Positions 21,064 to 23,757 of a stretch of DNA of 38,056 nt are shown in pieces. The notes under the pieces were generated by a model. It ran no database searches. It was given only the letters and a program-made list of their open reading frames with translations, and was not told the DNA's origin. A program made the position numbers and the translations under genes. The stretch is taken from contig DAIDHP010000040.1 of the NCBI GenBank assembly GCA_027459625.1, positions 1-38,056 of the forward strand, written 5' to 3'. This DNA is from Chthonomonadales bacterium (GTDB taxonomy: Bacteria > Armatimonadota > Chthonomonadetes > Chthonomonadales > CAJBBX01). Numbering within the stretch: the stretch's first letter is position 1; each line of letters starts with the position of its first letter.

Positions 21064-21867
21064 TCAATGATCGCATTGGCCGACATCTATCGCATTTCCG
21101 GGGAAAGTTCCAGCGTTTGCGTAACACACTAGGGGCCAGTTTAAATCCAGGTTATCGCCAGTCTCTCCGGTCACTTTGTCGTTATTGTTTTGTCTAAGCA
21201 GCTTCGCGTGACCATCCAAAAAAACGGCGTTAAACACATGAGTGTCGCCTAAATTGGTGTCCCCGCCGTTCCACATACCGAAACTGCTGCCATGCCAATC
21301 CCATACATCCGAAAAGATGAACATCTGGGAGGGATAACCAATCATGGATTCTTTCAGAATGATGTTGGCACCTCCGTTCCAACCTGTTTGATTACTTGCC
21401 TGGGCTATATCCACCATGTATCGATAGTAATAAGAACCCATCGTGGAAGCGGTATTGCATGGGTAAACGACTCCATTATGGGTGCAATTTGAGCTGCCAG
21501 GTTGCCATTGGCTAATTCTTCCCCAATAATCCTGCTGGTTGTCATCCGGGCATTGGAAAAGGTTATTATTCTTAGTGTAAGGATATAGAATGAACTGGCT
21601 CCCAAAATTCAAGTTCATCCCGATGCTGGGGCCGAAAATATTCACCCCGGGATAGATATCCTGGGAGGAGGGCAGTGCTTCGTCGTAATCCTGTTCGTAC
21701 ATTTGAAGCGCGGTGCCGATTTGTTGAAGGTTGCTGAGGCAGCTTATTTGACGGGCTTTTTCACGCGCTTGCGCGAAAACGGGAAATAGAATTGCAGCCA
21801 ATATCGCGATAATAGCTATGACCACTAGCAATTCTATCAATGTAAATCCACTCTTTCGGACTTTCAT
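21064..21867 (-). CDS. Prepilin-like protein (type IV pilin N-terminus, H-X9-DG end)
   Basis: 267 residues from ATG 21867, preferred over 21885 because AAAGGA is 9 bases upstream of it. The class III leader [12 protein letters not shown] is cleaved before F8 by a prepilin peptidase; E12 is the usual +5 glutamate. The hydrophobic helix [21 protein letters not shown] follows, then a globular domain with H-x-F-N-A-V-F-x-D-GHAKLL near the end. The protein belongs to the large DUF1559-like pseudopilin group, which is expanded in Planctomycetota and Armatimonadota; it is probably displayed at the envelope. A perfect palindrome at 21898-21913 lies just upstream and may be an operator. Confidence 0.88.
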
Positions 21868-21897
21868 CTTAATCAATCCTTTCATTTCGAAATATTA

Positions 21898-22317: not shown

Positions 22318-22346
22318 TTGACAGAACCCCTTCCTCGGAATATAAT
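22318..22346 (+). promoter_or_regulatory. Perfect sigma-70 consensus promoter for the Nramp gene
   Basis: TTGACA (22318-22323), 17 bases, then TATAAT (22341-22346). Both boxes are exact consensus, predicting a start near 22353. A fully consensus promoter feeding directly into a terminator-like leader suggests that control happens after initiation. Confidence 0.85.
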
Positions 22347-22351
22347 GTCAT

Positions 22352-22418
22352 GAGGTTTCGCCGATGAACCCTTCATCCCGAACAAAAAGCCTCTCAGGGC
22401 AGGGAGGAAGGCTTTTTT
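22352..22418 (+). promoter_or_regulatory. Transcription-attenuator leader (terminator/antiterminator)
   Basis: AAAAAGCCT (22384-22392) and AGGCTTTTT (22409-22417) form an intrinsic terminator ending in a T-run. GAGGTTT (22352-22358), right at the expected transcript start, can instead pair with AAGCCTC (22387-22393), which would dissolve the terminator. A small hairpin GATGAA-CCC-TTCATC (22363-22377) lies between them. The coding start is at 22456. This is the layout of a riboswitch or protein-controlled attenuator. The sensing region is only ~30 bases, and I could not match it to yybP-ykoY (Mn), M-box (Mg), crcB (fluoride) or preQ1 patterns. Confidence 0.6.
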
Positions 22419-22455
22419 GCATGTTCGCACCCATTCCTGTGGATAGGCCTCGCTT

Positions 22456-23757
22456 ATGTCCTTACGCTCTCTGCGAAGATCGCTGCTCAATAGTCGTCTC
22501 TGGATCCTATTCGCCATCATAGGTCCGGGGATCATCACCGCCAATGCCGACAACGACGCCACCGGCATCCTGGGATACTCCCTTGCCGGGGTGCAGTACG
22601 GCTACGCCATGCTCTGGGTGCTGGTGCTCTCCACCTTCGCACTTGGCATCGCACAGGAGATTTGCGCACGGATGGGGGCGGTCACGGGAAAGGGGCTTGC
22701 CGACCTGATTCGGGAGGAATACGGAGTTAAAATCACCCTCCTCGCCATGGCAACCCTCCTCGTGGCGAATTTCGCCACCACCATCGCTGAGTTCGCCGGG
22801 ATCACCGCCGCGATTCAGGTCTTCACACCGCCCAACCTTTTCGTCTACGTACGGTTCCTGGCCATGCCTCTCGTGGGATTGGGGGTCTGGTTCATGGTGG
22901 TGAAGGGCACCTATCGCGGGGTCGAGAAGGTACTACTCGGCGCCTCGCTGATCTATCTCAGCTACATCGTCAGCGCGTTTTTGGCGCATCCCCCTTGGTT
23001 TCATGTACTGAGGGAGACGGTGGCGCCGAATTTGAAGCACATCGGGCCCCTCACTCCCTACATCTTTATGGTCATCAACGTCATCGGCACCACCATCACC
23101 CCGTGGGGGCAGTTCTACGTGCAGTCGGCTGTGCGCGACAAGGGCATCAAAGCGGAGGAGTACGGCTACGAGCGGACGGATGTGCTTTTCGGATCGTTTT
23201 TCACCAACTTTATCGCCTTCTTCATCATCGTCTGCTGCGCCAAGGCGATCTACTTCCATCCGGAGTTGCACATCACCAACCTGAACGACGCCGGTCAGGC
23301 GGCTTTGGCGCTGCGCCCCGTGGCTGGGGAACTCGCCACGGCTCTTTTCGCCATCGGTCTCTTCAACGCTTCGTGTTTCGGAGCCATCATTGTACCGCTC
23401 TCAACGGCTTACGCCGTCACCGAGGCCCTTGGGTGGGAGAGCGGCGTGGGGCGAAGGTTGCGCGAGGCGCCGCTCTTCATCGGGGTCTACTCCTTCCTTA
23501 TTCTCACGGCGGTGATCGTAGTGATGCTGTTCCCCAACCACCTCACGATGCTGATGATCCTGCCCAATATCATCGGGGGGGCGCTTCTTCCGATTATTCT
23601 CACGCTGATGCAGCTATTGTCGAGCAAGCGTAGGCTGATGGGGGATTACGTCAACAGCAAAACCTTCAACACCATCGCGTGGATCTCCACGATTATCCTC
23701 ACTCTGCTCTCGCTGATTCTGCTCGTCACCCAGCTCTTCCCGATTGGAACATCTTAG
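22456..23757 (+). CDS. Nramp-related divalent metal transporter
   Basis: A 433-residue inner-membrane protein with about 11 helices and the Nramp (SLC11-like) opening FAIIGPGIITANADNDATG. In classical Mn/Fe importers helix 1 carries DPGN and helix 6 carries MPH; here those places read DNDATG and TPWGQF. The protein thus belongs to a divergent Nramp-related branch that includes Mg-type and other carriers, and its metal cannot be assumed to be Mn. The ATG at 22456 has only a weak GGATAGG upstream. It is a monocistronic unit with a perfect promoter and an attenuator leader, which suggests tight control by its substrate or by metal status. Confidence 0.85.
   Translation: MSLRSLRRSLLNSRLWILFAIIGPGIITANADNDATGILGYSLAGVQYGYAMLWVLVLSTFALGIAQEICARMGAVTGKGLADLIREEYGVKITLLAMATLLVANFATTIAEFAGITAAIQVFTPPNLFVYVRFLAMPLVGLGVWFMVVKGTYRGVEKVLLGASLIYLSYIVSAFLAHPPWFHVLRETVAPNLKHIGPLTPYIFMVINVIGTTITPWGQFYVQSAVRDKGIKAEEYGYERTDVLFGSFFTNFIAFFIIVCCAKAIYFHPELHITNLNDAGQAALALRPVAGELATALFAIGLFNASCFGAIIVPLSTAYAVTEALGWESGVGRRLREAPLFIGVYSFLILTAVIVVMLFPNHLTMLMILPNIIGGALLPIILTLMQLLSSKRRLMGDYVNSKTFNTIAWISTIILTLLSLILLVTQLFPIGTS

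Follow-up and report, generated by a model that had tools for sequence, protein, structure and literature searches.

A consensus promoter that is followed almost at once by an intrinsic terminator, and only then by a gene, raises the question of how that gene is expressed and which cue, if any, governs its expression. This arrangement precedes an Nramp-related transporter gene in the stretch of DNA analysed here (38,056 nucleotides, termed the window). Because a very strong promoter has a terminator almost directly behind it, the cell probably throttles the transporter gene by early termination. On the basis of the results described below, we propose, with a probability of about 0.6, that a strong promoter and an attenuator built on an intrinsic terminator control a gene for an Nramp-related magnesium transporter (NRMT), probably in a Mg2+-linked manner.

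Promoter, leader and terminator

The promoter (22318-22346, forward strand) is of the sigma-70 type and is perfect, as the preliminary description of this DNA had stated: TTGACA-N17-TATAAT agrees with the consensus at 12 of 12 positions. The exact pattern occurs 39 times in the 4.55-Mb genome compared with a single occurrence of the reversed control pattern, and the match is therefore very probably a real, working promoter. As judged from the position of the -10 hexamer, transcription should start at about 22352-22354. A start downstream of the terminator is unlikely, since the T-run lies just 37 bases before the ATG of the Nramp-family gene and a promoter scan reported no second promoter-like site before this ATG.

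The terminator (22384-22418, forward strand) was characterized by hairpin folding, a stem scan and comparison with a relative. It consists of a hairpin with a 5' arm at 22384-22395 and a 3' arm at 22404-22406 and 22409-22417, and of a T6 tail at 22413-22418; the strong terminator described earlier just 5' of the transporter gene is thus present. A scan of the 38-kb window revealed no other forward-strand stem of -10 kcal/mol or lower that is followed by an unbroken T6. The nearest upstream gene (21064-21885) lies on the reverse strand and is divergent, which leaves this promoter as the only one that the terminator can serve.

Between the start of the consensus promoter's transcript and the end of the terminator lies a leader of ~66 nt, ~30 nt of which precede the terminator. 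Its 5' part (22352-22383, forward strand) begins with GAGGTTT (22352-22358) and contains a weak hairpin of GATGAA (22363-22368) with TTCATC (22372-22377), whose pairing is not above that of shuffled sequences in the relative. It also contains CCTTCATCC (22370-22378), a possible partner for the 3' terminator arm, whose pairing in the relative again does not exceed shuffles. In the two-species alignment, outer arms CGAACA (22379-22384) and TGTTCG (22422-22427), spanning 22379-22427 on the forward strand, are identical in both species and can close around the terminator after RNA polymerase has passed. The folding energy of the whole leader is ordinary and not lower than that of shuffled sequences (z = 0.04).

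The relative is a species of the same genus (G001, locus L010) that displays the same order of promoter, leader, terminator and gene, with both promoter hexamers and the 17-bp spacing retained and a transporter protein that is 97% identical. Promoter, leader and terminator together are ~91% identical between the two species, and from the -35 hexamer to the ATG 11 of 139 aligned sites are substituted, compared with 54 of 238 fourfold-degenerate sites in the gene (Fisher p = 2e-4). Upstream of the -35 hexamer, the two sequences are unalignable. The terminator of G001 has a longer, unbroken stem, with changes from A-U to G-U and from C-G to U-G. The leader is absent from the other genomes of the order outside the genus and is known from two species; no further copies were found in the window genome, and a contig scan yielded no additional species of the genus, so that the structural comparison comprises two sequences. 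Conservation among close relatives, the lack of which the preliminary description had named as a refutation, hence holds at the level of the genus but not in the rest of the order.

Promoter, intrinsic terminator and gene follow one another on one strand, the order by which an attenuator is recognized. This anatomy, the lack of any upstream forward-strand gene in need of a terminator and the constraint on the leader agree with the attenuator proposed earlier ahead of the Nramp-like gene, and we consider it quite likely that the leader acts as one. The putative attenuator is of a kind already known, and its reading rests on anatomy and constraint.

The transporter and the leaders of its orthologues

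The gene behind the terminator (22456-23757, forward strand) is nrmT-like and encodes a protein of 433 amino acids that belongs to the Nramp family by Pfam (PF01566, E 1.6e-84), as had been described. Motif and structure narrow this assignment further. The ion-binding signature of NRMTs is DxxG-TxxA/T, and in EleNRMT a Trp replaces the first His of helix 6 (PMC8806188). The window protein carries D34-A-T-G37 in helix 1 and T212-T-I-T215 followed by P-W in helix 6; it thus displays the signature as DxxG-TxxT and shares with EleNRMT the Trp that takes the position of the first helix-6 His. An orthologue profile compared with known structures matches EleNRMT (7QIA) best, at 3e-129, as opposed to ~1e-34 for MntH, and the protein scores under the NCBIfam MntH cutoff. 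By motif and closest structure, the gene belongs to the NRMT group, and it probably encodes a magnesium importer.

Known NrmT members include Ca_c0685 and Ca_c3329 of Clostridium acetobutylicum, and M-boxes are associated with NrmT genes (PMC4072509). A member from Acidobacterium capsulatum fully rescued a Mn2+-transport defect, but a Mg2+ defect was relieved only when Mg2+ was in the low millimolar range (PMC4072509). Given this rescue of manganese transport by a group member, Mg2+ is the likely, not the proved, cargo.

The regions upstream of orthologues point to the same ion. An M-box Mg2+ riboswitch precedes the orthologues in three genomes (G012, G014 and G040), and in the more distant relatives Desulfosporosinus, Geomonas, Geomesophilobacter and Pelotalea an M-box lies 1.4-1.8 kb upstream, in keeping with the published association of M-boxes and NrmT. 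The window genome itself has an M-box with an intrinsic terminator (L114, 1771-1945; G000:C61) before another Nramp-family gene, and terminator-based Mg2+ control thus exists in this organism. A leader peptide is found before the orthologues of G017, G022, G024, G025, G026, G027, G055 and possibly G002. Promoter-plus-hairpin leaders occur in the window genus and, by sequence only, in G006 of the same family, where a perfect promoter and a hairpin resembling a terminator precede the orthologue.

Other orthologues have no leader and lie directly 3' of an ApbE-family gene (G005 and G007-G011; the ApbE identity is Pfam-confirmed for the G005 copy, L027, only), suggesting that orthologues close behind this gene are co-transcribed with it. 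Further orthologues stand behind a PD40-type gene, for example in G013, G015, G016, G018, G019 and G028, with PD40 Pfam-confirmed for the G029 copy only. At L017, L018, L021, L022, L025 and L027, the orthologue starts at most ~15 nt after the end of the upstream ApbE-family gene.

The same Mg2+-transporter gene is therefore placed behind at least three unrelated leaders, namely the M-box, a leader peptide and a bare terminator leader, and it illustrates cleanly how regulation linked to an essential ion has turned over within one order and its phylum. Since the gene is of the NRMT type by motif and closest structure, and since M-boxes stand at its orthologues, the metal link can be narrowed to Mg2+. 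By analogy, regulation of the window gene by Mg2+ may be put forward tentatively, at somewhat below even odds.

Two known systems resemble the window leader in part. Like the M-box (ykoK, RF00380), which precedes NRMT-type genes including orthologues of the window gene, it places a terminator before such a gene; unlike the M-box, it has no aptamer, and the ~30 nt before its terminator fall far below the 169 positions of that aptamer. Like MgtL of mgtA, it would end transcription early, before a Mg2+-transporter gene. MgtL relies on a translated leader peptide and on Rho-dependent termination (PMC11282234), whereas the window leader, in contrast to that of mgtA, has no conserved upstream open reading frame (ORF).

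The search for a switch and the rival explanations

In the proposed attenuator, the consensus promoter would initiate frequently, and most transcripts would go no further than the intrinsic terminator, ~66 nt from their start. Those that pass it would serve as mRNA for a magnesium importer of the NRMT type. Read-through may be regulated and would probably rise when Mg2+ is short, as with the M-box of the orthologues; for their leader-peptide leaders the same Mg2+ response is assumed. Read-through could be set by a protein that binds the leader, by an effect of polymerase pausing or simply by a constant leak.

According to the main rival explanation, a leaky terminator simply fixes the output of a very strong promoter at a low level and senses nothing. 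The results for the leader itself are compatible with such a damper, since neither a sensor nor a conserved alternative pairing was found and the leader occurs in two species only; a weaker promoter, however, would achieve the same more simply, and Mg2+-linked leaders stand at many orthologues. We regard this explanation as unlikely, albeit a serious one.

Alternatively, promoter and terminator may form a separate small RNA of ~66 nt, with the transporter expressed by read-through or from elsewhere. The unit is compact, as this would demand; it nevertheless lies directly 5' of the gene in both species, has no other copy in the genome and leaves the gene with no second promoter-like site before its ATG. 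An independent small RNA is thus improbable. Much the same holds for a repressor that would bind DNA at the start site and make the terminator secondary: an 8-bp inverted repeat, GAAACCCC/GGGGTTTC, flanks the -10 hexamer and is perfect in G001, but differences break it in the window species, and we dismissed it as an operator candidate.

The remaining alternatives attribute the control to the RNA itself. Rfam returned no family at gathering score for the whole window, M-box RF00380 and other riboswitches included, and no M-box match at E up to 1 was found in L009; the preliminary description had likewise recognized no riboswitch in the very short sensing part. Translation of the leader, by analogy with MgtL, was likewise dismissed, since no ORF is conserved between the window and G001: the ATG at 22364 is ACG in G001, and the frame from 22350 reaches a stop after 5 codons in the window and is open in G001.

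An antiterminator formed by CCUUCAUCC (22370-22378) and GGAGGAAGG (22403-22411), the latter in the 3' terminator arm, would be stable in the window species, where the pairing amounts to -14.8 kcal/mol, is equalled by 32 of 1000 shuffles and is the favoured fold at intermediate transcript length. The corresponding pairing in G001 attains only -7.6 kcal/mol, and 498 of 1000 shuffles are as good; this antiterminator was set aside as a feature of the window species only, and we hold it to be rather improbable. Least credible is the RNA switch of the preliminary description, in which GAGGTTT opens the 5' terminator arm on metal: the window does offer 7 complementary pairs, one of them G-U, but the pairing is at chance level (226 of 1000 shuffled leaders are as good) and as weak in G001 (362 of 1000), and this antiterminator was dropped. 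No candidate alternative pairing beat shuffles in both of the two sequences compared; an attenuator worked by a protein, or by a fixed leak, would need no such antiterminator.

The notion of a new metal-responsive RNA has hence fared unevenly, as its metal link is backed and narrowed to Mg2+ but no sensing element was found. That the leader RNA itself senses the cue is doubtful. Similarly, there is only a slim chance that the 66-nt leader is a minimal Mg2+-responsive terminator switch which replaced the M-box or the leader peptide of the orthologues; a true switch of this kind would work with neither an aptamer of known type nor a leader peptide.

A leader peptide before magnesium transporter genes

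The leader peptide of the relatives, first seen before Nramp orthologues, follows the pattern M-x-x-[D/E]-x-S-H-S-T-x-G-R and has ~21-32 residues (more in a weak G114 copy). It shares its targets with the window leader, namely orthologues of the window gene, and is also found at mgtE genes. Pattern searches showed it to be absent from the window genome, and it therefore does not explain the window leader. The peptide family is a more novel by-product of this analysis than the window attenuator.

The pattern occurs in 12 of 291 Armatimonadota genomes and its reversed control in none. In this phylum, the peptide is located some hundreds of nucleotides 5' of the genes for two unrelated types of Mg2+ transporter: Nramp orthologues (L011, L012, L013, L014, L015, L016 and L019) and, in five genomes, mgtE (L123, L124, L218, L228 and L242). 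Four newly found copies precede mgtE genes confirmed by Pfam (MgtE_N and CBS), and the weaker fifth (G114, L242) precedes an mgtE-like gene as judged by eye. Of two other copies (L126 and L131), one stands before an ABC permease and one before a protein with no Pfam match. Rfam gave no match for the peptide region. In the literature searched, the peptide pattern was not found, and no paper joins Armatimonadota with leader peptides.

Across 12 copies, all differences at codons 4, 7, 9 and 11 are synonymous, whereas codons 2, 3, 5 and 10 vary freely; this constraint partly follows from the search pattern, yet the six copies found by Nramp homology alone also show it. AGT encodes both serines in every copy. 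About 150 nt downstream of the start there are GACGACC-like stretches to which the Gly-Arg-Arg codons (GGTCGTC) are complementary. For two diverged copies, L013 and L016, the best pairing is the one within the same locus; across the whole set, however, the advantage of matched over mismatched pairs is only modest (-17.1 versus -15.2 kcal/mol). It is possible that the peptide serves as a Mg2+ sensor, in which case the family would represent a Mg2+ sensor outside Proteobacteria that precedes two unrelated kinds of transporter.

Two further matches were taken as chance, a short ORF rich in serine and threonine where a sulfate adenylyltransferase gene begins (L121) and a weak match before an unrelated gene in G142 (L241). 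A variant short ORF that begins M-D-S-H-S lies 150-210 nt before the Nramp gene in three genomes of another family (L088, L098 and L099 in G087, G148 and G140, respectively). On the strand opposite the leader peptide of G003, a fluoride riboswitch (RF01734, 41.9 bits) is located at 1701-1778 of L126.
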